DNA from: Bacteroidaceae bacterium | GTDB taxonomy: Bacteria; Bacteroidota; Bacteroidia; Bacteroidales; Bacteroidaceae | NCBI GenBank assembly: GCA_017965425.1 | Contig: JAGCPY010000020.1 | Location: 1-64,000, forward strand | DNA length: 64,000 bases | Direction: 5' to 3' | In this document: one piece after another, positions 5,931 through 58,442 of the stretch | Numbering within the stretch: the first letter of the stretch is position 1 | Layout: each line of letters starts with the position of its first letter | Notes under the pieces: generated by a model | Seen by the model: the letters and a program-made list of their open reading frames with translations, nothing else | What the model was told of the DNA's origin: nothing | Database searches by the model: none | Translations under genes and position numbers: made by a program

Positions 5931-5972
5931 TAAACGCTAATCGTTAAACGCTAAACGTTAAACGATAATCGC
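5931..5972 (+). repeat. six tandem heptanucleotides, TAA(A/T)CGN type
   Basis: The units read TAAACGC, TAATCGT, TAAACGC, TAAACGT, TAAACGA, TAATCGC without gaps. They fill the space between the stop of the MBG protein and the stop of the convergent ABC-F gene at 5975. Variation is confined to unit positions 4 and 7. Confidence 0.8.
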
Positions 5973-5974
5973 TT

Positions 5975-15984: not shown

Positions 15985-16135
15985 TAAAATGCTCAAAAAA
16001 ACTTATCTTGACGCAGATTCATTTACGGTAACGGATGTGGCGAGTCTTTCTCATACCAACATTCCATACTTTCTACGTCCTGGGCTTCTCTTTTGAATCT
16101 CATATCAATAGAGCGAATTGACGGAACGCACGGCA

Positions 16136-16221
16136 CGTATATTCATAAATGCATGAACGTATATACATAAATGCGTGGACGTATATACATAAGTGCTGGT
16201 GCGTATATACGTGTATGTAGG
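16136..16221 (+). repeat. 22-bp tandem repeat, four units (last divergent)
   Basis: Units start at 16136, 16158, 16180 and 16202, each beginning CGTATAT followed by A/T, C and A/G (core CGTATATACATAAATG). The fourth drifts after CGTATATACGTGTATG. The 382-bp stretch 15914-16295 holds no gene, only the serC promoter, these repeats and the hairpin that follows. The same core with the same 22-bp spacing is found inside folC. Confidence 0.8.
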
Positions 16222-34230: not shown

Positions 34231-34524
34231 TTAAATTAAGTCGTTATTCAACTTTCGGAAATAGTTAAGGAGGATGCGGCCGAGCATGACTCTGGCATCA
34301 TTGATGGAATATAACCGACAGGTGGCTATTGGCAGGTATTCGTCAACCGCCACAATGTATTTTGTCTCAGGCGTGTCGTGCTCGTCAAACTCTACCTCGA
34401 GTGTTGTCCATTGTCCATTTTCCATTGTCCATTGTCCATTTTCCATTGTCCATTGTCCAGCGGATGCGCTCCGAACATCTTCACCAGCCCGTCCTGCCGT
34501 CGTTGTTGCTCTGATGATCTCCAT
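34231..34524 (-). pseudogene. decayed GNAT acetyltransferase carrying an in-frame heptanucleotide repeat
   Basis: 97 codons. MEIIRATT at the start and LEVEFDEHDTPETKYIVAVDEYLPIATCRLYSI in the middle match a Bacteroidales GNAT family. Between them, where relatives have a helix of about 20 residues, stands repeat-encoded GQWTMENGQWTMENGQW. The text fails again just after LGRILL, where the acetyl-CoA loop should be, and ends 12 residues later, so the catalytic half is missing. It is almost certainly inactive. Confidence 0.65.
34404..34459 (-). repeat. heptanucleotide repeat TGGACAA/TGGAAAA, eight units
   Basis: On the minus strand the units run TGGACAA twice then TGGAAAA, twice over, followed by TGGACAA twice. 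The 21-bp super-period equals seven codons, so the frame stays open and encodes GQWTMEN. Confidence 0.9.
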
Positions 34525-34557
34525 AGTTGGTATGTTAATCTACTGCTAACTTGGTTT

Positions 34558-35295
34558 TTACTTCAGCAGATTATCTTTCGCCTGAGGGCTGTTCTGCCAA
34601 ATCGCGTTGACTTTCGGACAGACCTCGCTCTCTGAACAATCGCCACAAGTCTCTATACTCTTGGCCACTGCACACTTACGGATCTCGCACAACGAGCTGC
34701 AGAAAAGGGTCTTGACGCCGTCCATGCGGCAACCCTCGCAGTTGATATGTTCTGGGAGGATGGATGCATGATTCAACTCAGACCAGAGCTTAGCGGTTCT
34801 TTCCCGAAGCAACTGATCATCGTTCTTTGTGGCAATAAACGCGTCGCACTTCTCGCAGTCAAGCCCACAGGAGCCTATCAATCTTTTGATTTTGGCTGCC
34901 CTCGATATCCGGAAACTACAACGATCCCCCCCTCTGAGAATCGTTTTAACGATCTGAACATCAAATTTGCTATCCGGCTCAAGCTGTGATAATATATATA
35001 AGATGCTCTGGCGCGAGCACTCGCATTGCTCTCGGCAGCTTCTTATCCCGCATTTCACCTTAGGGCACGAGCATTGTCCATTGTCCATTGTCCATTGTCC
35101 ATTGTCCAGATAGCTCAGTTCATAGACCTTCCCAGGGACAATAACTTCACCTGTATAGGAGTTGTTATTATACGCTTCAGTATAAATTCTGTCAAAATCC
35201 CCGTTATACTTGTCATATATTCGTTGATGCATCGGGAGAACAGAATCTTTAACGCATTCTATCGCCTCTTCTCGGTAATCAACCTCTTTCTTCAT
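34558..35295 (-). CDS. Cys-rich DUF6144-like plus DUF3795 fusion protein with repeat insert
   Basis: 245 aa. The N-terminal half (MHQRIYDKYNGDFDRIY, CECSRQSILYILSQLEPDSKFDVQIVKTILRGGDRC) resembles a family annotated DUF6144; the C-terminal half (IGSCGLDCEKCDAFIATKN, INCEGCRMDG, CEIRKCAVAKSIETCGDC) is DUF3795, a Cys-rich possible metal-binding domain. Between PGKVYELSYL and CSCPKVKCG sit about 11 residues encoded by the heptanucleotide repeat (DNGQWTMDNGQ). The frame is intact, so the protein may still be made. No signal peptide. Family names are by recollection of motifs. Confidence 0.65.
   Translation of the reverse strand: MKKEVDYREEAIECVKDSVLPMHQRIYDKYNGDFDRIYTEAYNNNSYTGEVIVPGKVYELSYLDNGQWTMDNGQCSCPKVKCGIRSCREQCECSRQSILYILSQLEPDSKFDVQIVKTILRGGDRCSFRISRAAKIKRLIGSCGLDCEKCDAFIATKNDDQLLRERTAKLWSELNHASILPEHINCEGCRMDGVKTLFCSSLCEIRKCAVAKSIETCGDCSESEVCPKVNAIWQNSPQAKDNLLK
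35074..35108 (-). repeat. heptanucleotide repeat TGGACAA, five units
   Basis: Five identical units on the minus strand inside the DUF6144-DUF3795 gene. 35 bp is not a multiple of three, so flanking bases must have changed for the frame to stay open. Confidence 0.9.
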
Positions 35296-35305
35296 GATTC
35301 TTTCT

Positions 35306-35767
35306 TTACCATCTAGTGCTAAATCCGATTTTTGTACGCGAATTTAGATATAAATACCGATTGATCTGTTTTTTTTTCGTCCAAGTCATTCTAATATGAG
35401 GGATGCCATCGAGCATGAAGGTGTCGGACGACTGCTGGAATCCTACGCTTTCGTAGAACCCACGGGCGTACTCCTGCGCTTCAATATCAATGCGCTTTGC
35501 ATCGAAACGCTCCATAGCTGTAGCAATGGCATGACACATGATCTGCTTGCCATAGCCTTTACCACGTTCGGCGGTGACGACGCGTCCGATGGAAATCTCC
35601 TGCATGTGAGTTCCTGCCGGGCAAACACGAGCCAAGGCCACTACCCTACCGTTCACAGTAAGCCACTCAACCACAAACACCTCGCTCCGCACTCGCAGGA
35701 GTTCATACAACTCGTCGGTGGTCAACTCATCAAACGTTTTCTTATGCAAGCGTGGTTCGTCGTTCAT
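35306..35767 (-). CDS. ElaA-like GNAT acetyltransferase with internal deletion
   Basis: 153 aa from the ATG at 35767 (NDEPRLHKKTFDELTTDELYELLRVRSEVFVVE style start); a longer frame overlaps the next gene. ElaA relatives have about 22 residues (around QNCxYQDxDGxD) between VVE and the next strand; here VVE joins straight to WLTVNGRVVALAR, an in-frame loss. The acetyl-CoA loop is present (IGRVVTAERGKGYGKQI), as are the YARGFYESVGF and GIPHIRM ends. The deleted piece is the most conserved ElaA signature, so activity is doubtful. About 20 extra residues at the C-terminus (QINRYLYLNSRTKIGFSTRW) look non-native. Confidence 0.65.
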   Translation of the reverse strand: MNDEPRLHKKTFDELTTDELYELLRVRSEVFVVEWLTVNGRVVALARVCPAGTHMQEISIGRVVTAERGKGYGKQIMCHAIATAMERFDAKRIDIEAQEYARGFYESVGFQQSSDTFMLDGIPHIRMTWTKKKQINRYLYLNSRTKIGFSTRW

Positions 35768-35777
35768 ACTTCGGCCA

Positions 35778-36275
35778 TCAAAGTTTTTCCATTTCGCTTG
35801 CCACATCCGACTCACAAGCCCTCATTGCGTCGAGCGTCTTTTGCAGCACATCGTCCAATGGCCATCCCAGCATCGCGGCTCCCTGTTCAATCACCTCGCG
35901 AGAGCAACCGGCGGCAAAGCCTTTTGACTTGTACTTCTTCTTGAGCGACTTCAGTTCCATGTCCTGAACACACTTCGACGGACGCATCCACGCAGCCGCC
36001 CCTATCAGTCCGCCCCACACCAACACATCTGCCTCTACGGCCTTTTGGAGAATCGGTTGAAGGTCGTCCTTGAAAGAGCAGACACCTTTTTTGCCGCCTT
36101 TCAGCTTGCAGGCAAAACAGCTCATACAACCCTTGTAATTCAGGCTGCGGTCATAGAGGTTCACCAGTTCCACTTCGGCACCAGCCTCCCTGGCACCGTC
36201 CATGGCACGCTTCAGCAGCTGTGCCGTATTGCCGTTCTTACGCGGACTTCCGTTTATAAATAATGCTTTTATCAT
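35778..36275 (-). CDS. flavodoxin-fold NAD(P)H-dependent oxidoreductase, possibly rearranged
   Basis: 165 aa from the ATG at 36275 (MIKALFINGSPRKNGNTAQL), which gives the FMN phosphate loop SPRKNGNT at the N-terminus. The CMSCFACK motif (about residues 50-57) is typical of iron-sulfur flavoprotein-like reductases. After ADVLVWGG the usual second FMN loop (SPIYFG, then a lid) is not seen; the text jumps to SKCVQDMELKSLKKKYKSKG and a helical end. Either a divergent subfamily or an internal deletion. Confidence 0.6.
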   Translation of the reverse strand: MIKALFINGSPRKNGNTAQLLKRAMDGAREAGAEVELVNLYDRSLNYKGCMSCFACKLKGGKKGVCSFKDDLQPILQKAVEADVLVWGGLIGAAAWMRPSKCVQDMELKSLKKKYKSKGFAAGCSREVIEQGAAMLGWPLDDVLQKTLDAMRACESDVASEMEKL

Positions 36276-36301
36276 ATCATCTGAATTAGCCAAATAATAA
36301 T

Positions 36302-36435
36302 TGAGTCCACTTGAAAAAAGTCCTGAAAGGACTGTAAGCACTCAGCCCAGGGCAGCGCCCTGGGTCATAATCAACCGGTTACATTACGCCCTGCAAGGGC
36401 AAAAGCATTCATTTTGTCTTTTTCAAGTGGACTCA
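36302..36435. mobile_element. MITE-like element with 17-bp terminal inverted repeats
   Basis: TGAGTCCACTTGAAAAA (36302-36318) is repeated inverted at 36419-36435. Inside are three smaller palindromes (GTCCTGAAAGGAC, CCCAGGGC-AGC-GCCCTGGG and GCCCTGCAAGGGC). The right part is translated as the last 20 residues of the nitroreductase gene. Positions 36335-36360 recur as a 26-bp exact inverse copy at 44679-44704. Confidence 0.6.
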
Positions 36436-37138
36436 TCCAATCGAAAATAGCTTTCCCAGCACCAATCTCAAAATTGCATTTTGCGATGCCTAAATCTATC
36501 TGCGTATAGCCAATCAGCGAAAAGCCTTTCTTGGCGTGCACTTGATGCCGGTCGTCTTTCATGCCGAGGTACTCGAACGAGAATTTCTGCTGGTTCACCG
36601 CTGTAGGAGCAAGCAAAGCTGCTTCAACGCCCTTGCGGAACCACGAAGGAGTGATGTCACTGGCATTACTGACTTGCTCAACAGTCTTGATCTTATGGAC
36701 TAAACCCTGAGTTTCACCATAACCGATGGCGATGTAACAGACAATCTTCTCATCTTCGCCAAGAACATACGATCCAGGCACTTTTGAGTAGCTCAGACCT
36801 ACCCAACAAGTGTTCAAACCGATGGTCTGGGCGAGTAAGACCAGATGCTCACCGTAGTAGCCCACGCGCTCATCAAGGTCGTCGGCTTTTCGTCCAGCCA
36901 TGACCAGATAGTTGTTGACATTACGGAACTTTCCGTATTTGGCCATCGTACCTTGGAATGCCTTTGGCTCGTTGAGGATGAGCTGAATATGCAGCATTCC
37001 TTCGCCGTTGACTTCTTCAATCTGTTCCTCCAGCACCTTGACGATTTCCTCGCTCAACGGCTGCTCCTTGTACGCCCTTACGCTATGCCGGGCTTCCATT
37101 GCTTCCTCTATTGTCATGATTCTATACATATACTTCAT
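36371..37138 (-). CDS. nitroreductase-family protein with element-derived C-terminus
   Basis: 255 aa; starts at 37138, 37129 or 37117 are possible, and TIEEAMEARHSVRAYKEQPL is the family N-terminus (FMN phosphate-binding Arg and Ser). Further features are NYLVMAGRK, GYYGEHLVLLAQTIGLNTCWVG and the double nitroreductase half with ALLAPTAVNQQKF. Relatives end near FEIGAGKxxFDW; here a further 20 residues (SPLEKDKMNAFALAGRNVTG) come from the inverted-repeat element. The substrate is unknown; the flavoprotein gene next to it is also a reductase. Confidence 0.85.
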   Translation of the reverse strand: MKYMYRIMTIEEAMEARHSVRAYKEQPLSEEIVKVLEEQIEEVNGEGMLHIQLILNEPKAFQGTMAKYGKFRNVNNYLVMAGRKADDLDERVGYYGEHLVLLAQTIGLNTCWVGLSYSKVPGSYVLGEDEKIVCYIAIGYGETQGLVHKIKTVEQVSNASDITPSWFRKGVEAALLAPTAVNQQKFSFEYLGMKDDRHQVHAKKGFSLIGYTQIDLGIAKCNFEIGAGKAIFDWMSPLEKDKMNAFALAGRNVTG

Positions 37139-37153
37139 TCTTTTTCACGTCCG

Positions 37154-37161
37154 CAAAGTTA
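37154..37161 (-). promoter_or_regulatory. -7 element of the nitroreductase gene
   Basis: TAACTTTG on the minus strand, 15 bases before the first possible start. Confidence 0.45.
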
Positions 37162-37260
37162 TAGTTTTTTCCCCGGTTCATCATCAGTTAAAGCCCCCTT
37201 TTTTATCCCATTTTAACTTTTTTTCTCGCGCTCAATGATAGACTCATCATGATTTATATC

Positions 37261-37268
37261 TATTTTTG
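37261..37268 (+). promoter_or_regulatory. -7 element of the truncated Tat-signal gene
   Basis: TATTTTTG, 57 bases before the ATG at 37326. The promoter survives although the gene does not. Confidence 0.4.
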
Positions 37269-37325
37269 CATCAATAAACGTAAAGAACTGCCTCAGAACC
37301 CATCAAAAACAAACCTATCAACAGT

Positions 37326-37538
37326 ATGAACAGACCACAATTCATTCAGAGATCATCCCTCCTGGCTGGCCTTGCTTGTCTCGACGCACCCTCCTTCGCA
37401 AAAGCCCTCCAGACACTCGGCACATGGACAATGGACAATGGACAATGGAAAATGGAAAATGGACAATGGAAAATGGAAAATGGACAATGGAACGGGGAAT
37501 CATTTTGTTTGGATGCAGATGCGTTTGGCACGCTTTAA
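37326..37538 (+). pseudogene. 5' remnant of an exported protein, cut by a heptanucleotide repeat
   Basis: 70 codons. The first 32 residues (MNRPQFIQRSSLLAGLACL, then APSFAKALQTLG) look like a Tat-type or Sec signal of a larger exported protein. They run directly into repeat-encoded text (TWTMDNGQWKMENGQWKMEN) and then stop within the antisense of the GH92 end. The body of the gene is missing. No function can be assigned. Confidence 0.55.
37425..37487 (+). repeat. heptanucleotide repeat TGGACAA/TGGAAAA, nine units
   Basis: Order: TGGACAA three times, TGGAAAA twice, TGGACAA, TGGAAAA twice, TGGACAA, then a broken unit TGGAACG. It ends 13 bp before the GH92 stop codon. Confidence 0.9.
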
Positions 37539-39650
37539 GTCTTTGTCTTGCAGGAACCAGCCCTTTAGTTGTCGTCCATCAACGCTGATGCGGGTGATTT
37601 TGTGCCGTGCGGCACCTTGGTGGACGATTTCAGTAGTGTGACCATCGGGGAAGGTGAAGAGAATACGTGGGAAGAGGGGTACGGTGACGATGTACTGAGG
37701 GTCAGCTGGAGAGTAGGTGTAGAGTCCAATGGCATTAAAGACGTACCAGGAGGACATCTCTCCTGCATCATCCATTCCTGCGTATGCGAGGTGGTGGCGT
37801 CCCATGTCATAGAAGCGGTTCATGATGCTGTCAAGGATCAACTGTGACTTCTCCTGACGATCGATGAAGTAATACATGTAGGGAATGCTGTGACCAGGTT
37901 GGTTGCCGTGGCAGTAGTTGCCGATGAATCCAGTCATGTTATGGACTTCATAGCCGCGCCAAGGTTGAGAGAAGAGCGAGTCTAACTTTAACTCGACGGC
38001 GCGCTTGCTGGGATAGAGTTTGACGACGCCTTGTGGGTCGTGCGGGGCAAAGAAGAGGGAGTTCCAGGCGTTCGCCTCGCGGTATTGGTAGGCGAAGTAG
38101 GGATAGTAGGGGCGGAAATCCTGTATCCAGGAGCCATCGTCAATGCGACCTCGCCAGAAGCCTGTTGATGGGTCGAAAAGCTTCTTGTAGTTCATCGAAC
38201 GAAGCCGTAGCTCTCGTTCAGCATCCTTCTCTCGAAGTTCACGTGCGATGAGTGCTGTGGCATAATCATCGTATGCATATTCCACGGTCTTAGTGACGGC
38301 AGCTTTGTACTCGTCTTGCGTAGGCACGTTCGTGGTGTCTTTCTCTGCAATCCATCCACGACGGAGGTATTCATCGAGGAAGGGTCGACCGCCAGGACCA
38401 GGCTTGAAGGCATTGTTATATAATAAGGTGTAGGCACGACGCATGTCGAATCGCCGCACACCGCGGAGCCAGTTACCAGCCACGACGGCTGCACCGTGAT
38501 CGCCGTGGAAGAAGGTTGGGAAATAGCCGCCTCGCTTTTCGCCTCGGTCAATGCAGGACATGATAACATCTGCCATGACATCGGGTCTCAAGAGACCGAG
38601 GAGGATATCCTTGTTGCGGTAGTCATCCCAGAAAGACGGGTCTGTATAGTAGTTGAAGTCTGCGCTCACGACGTGGTCACGGGCGTCGCGGTACTGTCCA
38701 TTGACATCGCTGCGGAGGGATGGCCAAAGCAGGGAACGGTAGAGCGTTGAATAAAAGAGGCGACGTTGGCGTTCTGTGCCTCCCTGCACCTGGATGCGTC
38801 TGAGAAGAGCTTCCCACTGTTGGTCTGCCTCTGTGCGAACCTGATTGAAGGATTTGTTGAGCATCTCGGCCTCAAGATTCATTCGGGCATTGTCGATGCT
38901 GACAAACGAGAAGCCGACCCGAACTTCCAGCGGCAGCTCTCGGCGGCTGTCGTCAAAGCAGACTACAGAAAGGATGTCTCCACGGTTCTGGAGGTTAAGG
39001 ATGTTGCGAATGGCATAGTTTGTGGTCGCGTAGAAAAAGATGCGGCCCTCGCCGTTTTGAGAGCCGGAAAAGGCGTGTTCGCCCTCCCGCTGGATGCTCC
39101 AGTCACGCACATCGTTGTTGCTGTGCGTCATGTCTGCCAGCAAGAACTTCTCATCATCAGGTCGAAAGGTGTAGCGGTGGAAAGCACAACGCAATGTGGT
39201 GGTTAGTTCTGCATTCACATGATAACGTTCCAGATATACCTGGTAATATCCTGGTTGAGCACTCTCGTTCGCATGGCTATATGCGGAAGCATAATCGTTT
39301 GCACCGAAGCGTCCTGTGGCAGGCAAGAAGGGCACATGCAATCCTCCCCAATGCCCCTTCGCGGTGTGGCCGAAGCCCAAGATTGTCTGGTCTTCGTACT
39401 GATAGCCCGCACCAGAGTGATACATCGTCACTGGCGTGCACTGCACCATCGCATTAGGTAGCGAACTGCCAGGAAAGACCTCTGCCCCCCAGGTTCGCTG
39501 TTTCCATGTGCGGACGTAACCTAAATCCTCTGGTTCCCACAACGTAGCGGTTCCCAGCAATGGATTGACGTAACCGGTCAGCTGTTGACCTGAAGATAAG
39601 CCTGCCAAGCACGCCAAAAAAAGTGAAAAGAATACGCGCTTCATGTTCAT
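37500..39650 (-). CDS. GH92 alpha-mannosidase, exported
   Basis: 716 aa from the ATG at 39650 (MNMKRVFFSLFLACLAGLSSGQ, signal peptide); an alternative ATG is at 39644. GH92 enzymes are calcium-dependent exo-alpha-mannosidases acting on N-glycans or yeast mannan in the periplasm. The N-terminal sandwich has YVNPLLGTATLW, RTWGAEVFPGSSLPNAMVQ and GAGYQYEDQTILGFGHTAKGHWG; the barrel has SFWDDYRNKDILLGLLRP, FHGDHGAA, PGHSIPYMYYFI and DDAGEMSSWYVFNAIGLY with the catalytic acids. No SusCD pair is nearby. The 3' end abuts the heptanucleotide repeat but appears complete. Confidence 0.93.
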   Translation of the reverse strand: MNMKRVFFSLFLACLAGLSSGQQLTGYVNPLLGTATLWEPEDLGYVRTWKQRTWGAEVFPGSSLPNAMVQCTPVTMYHSGAGYQYEDQTILGFGHTAKGHWGGLHVPFLPATGRFGANDYASAYSHANESAQPGYYQVYLERYHVNAELTTTLRCAFHRYTFRPDDEKFLLADMTHSNNDVRDWSIQREGEHAFSGSQNGEGRIFFYATTNYAIRNILNLQNRGDILSVVCFDDSRRELPLEVRVGFSFVSIDNARMNLEAEMLNKSFNQVRTEADQQWEALLRRIQVQGGTERQRRLFYSTLYRSLLWPSLRSDVNGQYRDARDHVVSADFNYYTDPSFWDDYRNKDILLGLLRPDVMADVIMSCIDRGEKRGGYFPTFFHGDHGAAVVAGNWLRGVRRFDMRRAYTLLYNNAFKPGPGGRPFLDEYLRRGWIAEKDTTNVPTQDEYKAAVTKTVEYAYDDYATALIARELREKDAERELRLRSMNYKKLFDPSTGFWRGRIDDGSWIQDFRPYYPYFAYQYREANAWNSLFFAPHDPQGVVKLYPSKRAVELKLDSLFSQPWRGYEVHNMTGFIGNYCHGNQPGHSIPYMYYFIDRQEKSQLILDSIMNRFYDMGRHHLAYAGMDDAGEMSSWYVFNAIGLYTYSPADPQYIVTVPLFPRILFTFPDGHTTEIVHQGAARHKITRISVDGRQLKGWFLQDKDLKRAKRICIQTK

Positions 39651-39691
39651 TTTGCGTAAGATTCTATAAAGGTTCTCGCTCAAAAACGGTA

Positions 39692-58212: not shown

Positions 58213-58442
58213 AAATCCCTCAATCCCTCACCTCTTACGACATCAGATTGACATACAGGTGTGTACGGGTGAGAGATTGGTGAGGGAATGGTGAGGGATG
58301 GTGAGGGATTGAGTTTTTCTGTGTTTTCAACCTTATCTGCGAGAAATCCCTCACCATCCCTCACCATTCCCTCACCATCCCCTCACCCACAAGCTGCTTT
58401 TATTCAGACGATTACCTAAAATGGTGAGGGATTGAGGGATTT
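58213..58442. repeat. nested inverted repeat built from GGTGAGGGAT units
   Basis: Inner arms: a perfect 32-bp inverted repeat, 58279-58310 with 58345-58376, loop 34 bases, each arm made of about three units of 10-11 bases. Outer arms: a perfect 20-bp inverted repeat, 58213-58232 with 58423-58442. One strand could form a double stem-loop of about 230 bases. Confidence 0.9.

Follow-up and report, generated by a model that had tools for sequence, protein, structure and literature searches.

A stretch of 64,000 nucleotides from a Bacteroidaceae bacterium (GenBank assembly GCA_017965425.1, contig JAGCPY010000020.1, positions 1 to 64,000 of the forward strand; hereafter the window) carries three tandem arrays of a single seven-base unit, TGGAMAA (M being A or C). 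The arrays belong to a large, fast-changing population of heptamers in the gene spacers and enzyme loops of a ruminant-gut bacterial group. An original prediction had described arrays of eight, five and nine units, in both orientations and with one variable position in the unit, and sequence inspection together with Tandem Repeats Finder (TRF) located them accordingly:

34404..34459, minus strand: array 1, (TGGAMAA)8, reading TTGTCCA x8 on the plus strand, in a 97-aa frame
35072..35108, minus strand: array 2, (TGGACAA)5, 5.3 copies by TRF, in a 245-aa frame
37424..37491, plus strand: array 3, TGGAMAA x9, 9.7 copies by TRF

Arrays 1 and 3 also have a higher order of 21 bp, the M letters reading CCA CCA CC in the former and C C CAA CAA C in the latter.

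A genus-wide population of tandem heptamers

In the genome to which the window belongs (G000, 3.73 Mb in 96 contigs; other G numbers are other genomes), 26 overlapping three-unit matches to TGGAMAA resolved into seven arrays of at least three units on five contigs, and the reversed unit, taken as a control, had no match there. Three of the seven arrays fall within 3.1 kb of the 3.73 Mb, for which rough post hoc arithmetic gives a chance below about 1e-4. The other four are the following:

G000:C25: in the spacer before a trmB-like gene
G000:C38: within a threonine synthase gene (Pfam)
G000:C43: adjoining an S23 gene
G000:C56: close to the C-terminus of an 892-aa frame

Among 61 genomes of the order, comprising 37 of the genus (own genome included) and 24 from other families, the unit was present in 5 of the 37 and in none of the 24, and the reversed unit was found in none of the 61. 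Exact-match counting overlooks looser arrays, and similar DNA was matched in three genomes that had no exact match (G002, G015 and G019) as well as in four outside this sample (G064, G066, G077 and G079). In these counts the arrays extended beyond the three places in the window and were commoner than the control heptamer, so that a repeat family recurring in genome and genus was borne out; TGGAMAA is nevertheless only one of 61 heptamer classes and is conspicuous in this lineage only, because across a sample of the phylum the reversed unit is about equally frequent (among 296 genomes, 5 have it and 8, own included, have TGGAMAA). The same comparison ruled out TGGAMAA as a unit specially spread across phyla. 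A scan of GTDB returned at least 119 stretches with TGGAMAA arrays, from several phyla and with up to 8 kb per locus, which are no sign of transfer given that the reversed unit is about as common, and carriage by phages was rejected as well, with only 6 stretches in the viral collection. One genome of the phylum sample, G207, had 30 matches of the reversed unit and thus carries an abundant heptamer of its own.

Tandem arrays of any unit were counted with TRF (at least 2.5 copies) in 1.37 Mb pooled from 15 genomes of the genus. Period 7 was the commonest short tandem period, with 132 of 340 arrays, compared with 9, 36, 29, 15, 33 and 34 arrays at periods 6, 8, 9, 10, 11 and 22, respectively (21 of the 33 period-11 arrays coming from G000), while the total over all periods was 3 in third-order Markov copies of this 1.37 Mb; this control and the reversed-unit control rule out chance or artefact. 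Four genomes of other families contained 3 period-7 arrays in 337 kb. The pooled contigs, often taken from earlier match lists and in some cases for their thrC or trmB sites, were not meant as array-selected, and of the 132 period-7 arrays nine or more had already been known (three from the window, that of G000:C25, one in G017, three in G018 and one in G072). An extended set of 209 period-7 arrays of the genus, which includes stretches of G033, G029 and G003 that were chosen at arrays and stand outside the pooled count, served for the analyses of gene position, grammar, folding, S23 proximity, flank pairing and all-class ends.

The 209 arrays fall into 61 unit classes, the commonest being AATGGAC (27 arrays, a number inflated by the chosen stretches) and AATTATG (22 arrays). 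In the pooled sample, the 121 arrays left once near neighbours had been merged formed same-class pairs in 48 of 660 comparisons within genomes vs 136 of 6600 between genomes, and permutation of the labels, with kinship uncorrected, gave a mean of 16.7 and a maximum of 32 within-genome pairs, none of 500 permutations reaching 48, which indicates that genomes draw on repertoires of their own for sites that are unlinked. As to gene position, the rule of the original prediction that the arrays are always in or at genes does not hold for the population, since 135 of the 209 are intergenic and 62 lie inside open reading frames (ORFs) under a crude ORF model in which 89% of bases are coding. The spacers were co-directional, divergent and convergent in 82, 21 and 16 of 119 cases, vs 70.9, 26.0 and 21.3 kb of such spacer, with no clear bias.

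Several properties of the units were tried as causes and set aside. Hairpin formation was rejected because the units fold no better than letter-shuffled controls, and openness in six frames, a property that TGGAMAA has, because it is not enriched over the classes as a whole (0.15 vs 0.18). General inverted pairing fared no better, same-class neighbours being inverted in 6 cases and direct in 5, with six of these 11 from one cluster. Flanks of 260 nt paired with their own array better than all 25 random flanks did in 20 of the 209 cases (8 expected), and none of the three arrays of the window has a partner arm within 260 nt. Separately, two heptamer arrays of G003 (L041 and L044) lie in one dispersed element, with flanks GCCCCGTAGGGG... 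and ...AGGCAGGGGTGAA, so that arrays may also travel inside other repeats.

Unit grammar, array ends and turnover

The 61 rotated classes share, as their best common motif, N-R-W-K-K-A-N, with A at position 6 in 98%, and the information of this motif is 5.31 bits, compared with 4.16 +/- 0.12 (maximum 4.46) in 30 letter-shuffled sets (40 search restarts for the real set and 10 for the controls). The ends of the arrays tend to a particular register as well, and for TGGAMAA arrays with clean flanks this shows independently of the motif: AATGG or MAATGG forms the start in 59 of 90 cases, and AAT or AATG the end in 63 of 97. The favoured register is seen at 49 of 73 starts and 50 of 72 ends in the GTDB scan, for which this and the following counts refer to the matches listed, and at 10 of 17 starts and 13 of 25 ends in loci of the genus. 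When scan bias and array length were allowed for, left ends were in register in 47 of 71 cases (24.4 expected) and right ends in 49 of 70 (26.0 expected), kinship being uncorrected here and in the next counts. With one array per genome, a count covering 80 of the 119 GTDB loci, the numbers were 34 of 46 (16.0 expected) and 34 of 52 (19.4 expected). All arrays of named genomes whose record titles we read as outside Bacteroidota gave 17 of 25 and 16 of 24 (8.7 expected for each).

For all classes taken together in the register of the motif, phases 0-1 account for 31 of 58 left ends and the positions after letters 4-5 for 34 of 59 right ends, phases that were chosen after the counts had been seen; the p values, which test departure from uniform and are uncorrected for kinship, are 0.0003 (left) and 0.0002 (right), or 0.012 and 0.013 (44 ends each) minus the two commonest classes. 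Because the ends favour a four-base core, the arrays are best written (NRWK-KAN)n-NRWK, here (AATG-GAM)n-AATG. Core-bounded ends fit growth by realignment on the core, although alone they do not separate slippage from templated copying.

At orthologous sites the repeats change from species to species. Threonine synthase had a DNA match in 54 of 61 genomes, and 30 loci were cut out; its loop, which we delimited by the FWAYAQ region on one side and the VPSGNFGN region on the other, could be extracted in 28 of these (the second anchor was missing in G079 and G062), and all 28 loops are open and a multiple of three in length, from 39 to 183 nt. By eye, heptamer arrays of differing units occupy the loop in G000, G001, G003, G016, G017, G066, G073 and G082 (those of G003 and G066 being nearly alike), hairpin-like inserts are seen in G018, G019 and G065, and other dispersed repeats in G067 and G013. 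G017 (45 nt) and G016 (48 nt) have loops of about the usual length that nevertheless consist almost entirely of heptamers, from which it follows that native codons were replaced, not merely added to. The E. coli threonine synthase 1VB3 has a 16-residue gap at the position of the loop. A 30-nt piece present in the loops of G003 (L312, L094) and G067 (L328) also occurs elsewhere, in L302 and L259, and twice in one heptamer-rich stretch, L200.

A second site is the spacer between two genes that we read as ilvE and trmB; of 30 loci, 16 had the downstream gene at a distance of at most 1.5 kb. This spacer segment measures 20 nt in G001, G072 and G079, and unrelated 7-mer, 9-mer and other repeats stand there in several others. 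Nine-base repeats (for example TTCTAGAxC, GGACTTATA and CGAATTACA) follow the ilvE-like gene in G066, G003, G077, G026 and G014 (loci L336, L342, L351, L352 and L355). The impression that the family looks active is therefore upheld as rapid turnover between species, one genome standing for each, at the thrC loop and the ilvE-trmB spacer, and in that sense only.

Within the window, the arrays lie in or next to the following frames:

34231..34524, minus strand: 97-aa open frame with array 1, apparently a shortened acetyltransferase gene
34558..35295, minus strand: 245-aa gene with array 2, DUF3795 domain (PF12675, E 7.5e-17)
37326..37421, plus strand: 32 codons that look like the N-terminal part of a gene, preceding array 3
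37500..39683, minus strand: GH92 family gene (PF07971, PF17678)

Two arrays thus lie in coding frames and the third between a truncated coding fragment and the end of the GH92 gene, as had been predicted, with 8 bases from the end of array 3 to the GH92 stop codon on the opposite strand. Array 2 is a clean in-frame insert of 30 bp relative to G016, G075 and G034, which read TTGG-AATG or, in G034, TTGG-AGTG, where the window has 30 extra bases before AATG; the length of the insert is divisible by 3 and not by 7, and by eye the relatives have no second core copy 7 nt off. Six sequences aligned from five relatives are 33 bp shorter than the window at the site of array 1, where the native segment cannot be recognised. 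The 97-aa frame has no Pfam match of its own; it aligns with the first part of the relatives' genes, among them that of a 143-aa GNAT acetyltransferase in G036, and diverges at its 3' end. For the 32-codon fragment, no relatives were found among the fetched loci. In G000:C56 (L098) and G018 (L386), the linker ahead of a conserved WYTLDGR-type C-terminal tail is partly coded by heptamers (3 of 14 found). Some peptide stretches in Bacteroidales proteins, NGQWTMD being an example, can come from the translation of repeat DNA, which is relevant to annotation, and a genus with species-specific heptamers at orthologous sites, a readable grammar, preferred ends and an empty site makes it measurable why seven bases are used and why the same units recur.

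S23 genes and the origin of the arrays

At G000:C43:3150-3622 (L097:2151-2623), a 118-aa frame of the S23 family (PF05635) lies between arabinose isomerase and Aldolase_II genes and has inverted TGGACAA arrays on either side. PF05635 matches were found in 55 of 61 genus genomes and in none of 14 control genomes. In a set of 20 of the best 22 S23 genes by E-value (two at contig starts were omitted and some flanks were shortened), the two flanks, taken to a length of up to 200 nt, matched each other exactly in inverted orientation over at least 13 nt in 9 cases, the longest match being shorter in the other 11, vs 4 of 257 controls, one of which is itself an S23 gene. This measure was used in place of duplex energy, a confounded one, by which controls averaged -55.6 and S23 genes -62.1, with 2 of 19 S23 genes below the control 5th percentile. 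Five more S23 genes, beside known arrays, had inverted matches of 14 to 32 nt. The arms at one operon site, compared over five species, fit either the partner in their own genome or the one in a single near species, and so co-change (in G027, 27 with its own partner and at most 10 across species), and at a second operon site the own-arm matches were just 10, 10, 15, 15 and 6. By eye, the stems have periods of 7 to 9, not 7 alone, and the neighbours of the 20 genes look protein-coding, two of them, at G000:C43, having been checked with Pfam. S23 loci between protein genes, many with inverted 7- to 9-base tandem arrays, are L405-L424, L245, L275 and L277. S23 genes between inverted tandem arrays constitute a new genomic setting for a poorly understood family.

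Regarding the origin of the arrays, the reading that we prefer, and to which we assign an even chance of being right, is that they are members of a genus-wide tandem heptamer population that is seeded at core words, copied between sites, grown by 7-nt steps and filtered by selection. Units of a resident array would be copied, by gene conversion or by template switching at short homologies, to a core word already in place (AATG, for instance), and the new array begun there would then gain or lose 7-nt steps by realigning on the core, with selection sparing arrays in spacers, broken genes and tolerant protein loops. The three arrays of the window would represent one local burst, and the spread would bring no benefit to the cell, being neutral or mildly harmful. 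Copying between sites is the step that we infer, and several points weigh against it or against the reading as a whole. No copying event was seen in the compared genomes, and the 136 of 6600 same-class pairs between genomes exceed the 26.4 obtained for letter-shuffled units, so that repertoires common to genomes could stem from shared constraint instead of copying. The favoured register is not kept by about one third of the clean ends, core-bounded ends would result equally from slippage on a core-spacer-core seed, and few arrays remain among the matches listed when each genome outside Bacteroidota is counted once (8 of 10 vs 3.7 expected and 7 of 12 vs 4.7). A clean empty site inside a gene was found once only, at array 2, where the nearest relatives are other species and about 16% divergent, which means that several steps could pass for one. 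The threonine synthase loop of G000 is 42 nt longer than that of G072, a difference that does not discriminate, 42 being a multiple of both 7 and 3.

Each array might instead be independent, the product of polymerase slippage favouring 7-nt steps in the manner of Mrazek's idea of a 7-nt polymerase footprint (set out in the available parts of PMC4679880 and PMC4692102), with selection as filter and without copying between sites. The dominance of period 7, here and, according to those parts, in many bacteria, is what slippage would lead one to expect, the cores at both ends suit growth from a short direct repeat spaced 7 nt, and another unit is about as common in the phylum sample; we nonetheless think this explanation doubtful, although a serious possibility, in view of the recurrence of units at unlinked sites of one genome beyond all 500 permutations, of a unit grammar beyond that of shuffled letters, and of the 30-bp insert at array 2, where no 7-nt-spaced seed is seen by eye in relatives. 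That the arrays are leftover stems of S23/IVP (PF05635) mini-elements, solitary arrays being remnants, seems improbable to us. The inverted arrays around the S23 gene of C43, the frequency of inverted matches and the co-change of the two arms would agree with such an origin, as would the 9 of 209 arrays that lie within 400 bp of an S23 gene, where 0.8 were expected (4 of the 9 are in array-chosen stretches, and none of the 9 paired with its flanks, 260 nt being too short for the far arm of an S23 element). However, the other 200 arrays are away from S23, only 5 of the 119 GTDB array loci have S23 among the matches listed, and for these reasons S23 elements do not account for the arrays of the window, where partner arms are absent within the flanks and no credible S23 match was found (best E 0.03, at 49.1 kb); the stem periods of 7 to 9 and the 11 S23 genes below 13 nt argue in the same direction.

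A templated origin, with core words extended from a short RNA template by a telomerase-like enzyme or a reverse transcriptase, would account for the fixed register and for the same core at both ends, as from a template with an overlapping alignment region. It is very unlikely, given that 61 unit classes would demand many templates and that a search for RVT_1 (PF00078) matched 20 of the 61 genomes of the genus, with G000 one of them, and not the other 41 drafts, among which are the array-bearing G003, G029, G033, G016, G017, G066 and G077 (drafts 75 to 92% complete). Hardly any probability attaches to the arrays being selected regulatory or RNA-structure signals, that is, terminators, binding sites or translation signals of the kind proposed for TAACTGA: the intergenic majority and the 20 arrays that pair with their own flanks point that way, but the spacer types show no clear bias, the unit and even the presence of an array differ among species at one site, the units fold no better than shuffled ones, and 62 of the 209 arrays are inside ORFs. 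A wider proposal, which we regard as rather unlikely, would be that heptamers in many bacterial phyla are made by a single sequence-specific process which obeys one grammar, a core of four bases (NRWK) followed by three (KAN) with cores at both array ends, and which seeds arrays at core words and overwrites DNA, including loops of core enzymes, and that S23 mini-elements in operons use the same material, inverted, for an RNA-freeing stem.

Related repeat systems and other repeats of the window

Short tandem heptamer repeats such as those of Calothrix go by the label STRR, and two traits of STRR-like repeats and of long simple sequence repeats (LSSR), an excess of period 7 and a mainly non-coding location, both hold for the arrays of the genus. 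Heptamer repeats as such are already known; those described here are real members of this known kind, and what is unusual is how rich and informative their setting is. TAACTGA heptamers occur in Beggiatoaceae, Cyanobacteria and five Bacteroidetes, with relatives lacking them at the same place, as stated in the available part of PMC4679880, and clustered heptamers in Bacteroidales, which had been called unexpected, therefore have published precedents in the phylum. GGGAATC and GGGGA(C/T)T repeats of Xanthomonas and Nostoc and three Calothrix heptamers are reported in the corresponding part of PMC4692102, where detailed literature on such repeats is described as lacking. As far as these excerpts go, the family of the window resembles the bacterial heptamers in its seven-base period, variable letters, lineage-specific units, mostly intergenic position, several families per genome and relatives without the array, so that the likeness drawn to cyanobacterial heptamers was apt. 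Within the same limits, it is unlike them in that TGGAMAA and dozens of other units extend over one genus with a grammar and a register, in the in-frame replacement of enzyme loops varying by species, and in the inverted arrays at S23 genes. The unit itself differs from TAACTGA, and no rotation or complement of the latter is among the 61 classes. Among the matches listed, the open-licence literature on Bacteroidetes, Bacteroidales or Prevotella heptamers or S23 contained no recognised title on turnover, grammar, register or S23 stems.

Intervening sequences of rRNA may contain an S23 ORF, their inverted ends forming a stem that RNase III cuts (PMC4990558, in the part available). In this genus, too, the S23 gene stands between inverted repeats that could pair into a long stem, but it apparently sits between protein genes and the arms are 7- to 9-base tandem arrays; the arrays of the window are without an S23 gene, and the arrangement of S23 between arrays holds at G000:C43. 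Rickettsia palindromic elements are palindromic repeat DNA tolerated in frame within protein-coding genes, at protein-compatible places. In-frame insertion is shared with them (30 bp at array 2, and all 28 threonine synthase loops), whereas the units of this genus are simple tandem heptamers of many sequences, without excess self-folding.

The window contains one further heptamer array, of another class and the same population:

5931..5973, no strand assigned: 6 copies of TAAACGC/TAATCGT

Repeats of other kinds were also seen. A period-22 array of 3.5 copies lies at 16135-16210 of the window. At 36297-36436, between FMN-reductase-like and nitroreductase genes, there is a dispersed repeat with inverted ends, GAGTCCACTTG...CAAGTGGACTC, within which the nitroreductase frame terminates; it has a copy at G000:C59 (89% identity), and its right part occurs twice at G000:C70 (95 and 97%). 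Period-11 arrays, of which G000 has 21 per 307 kb, are inverted at 58268-58311 and 58347-58387 of the window (GGTGAGGGATT and TCCCTCACCAT), are found also at L095:3360-3490, and surround a short centre downstream of the threonine synthase gene. This last stretch, of about 100 bp, is repeated at G000:C38, C43, C52, C74 and C78 and so looks like a dispersed element.

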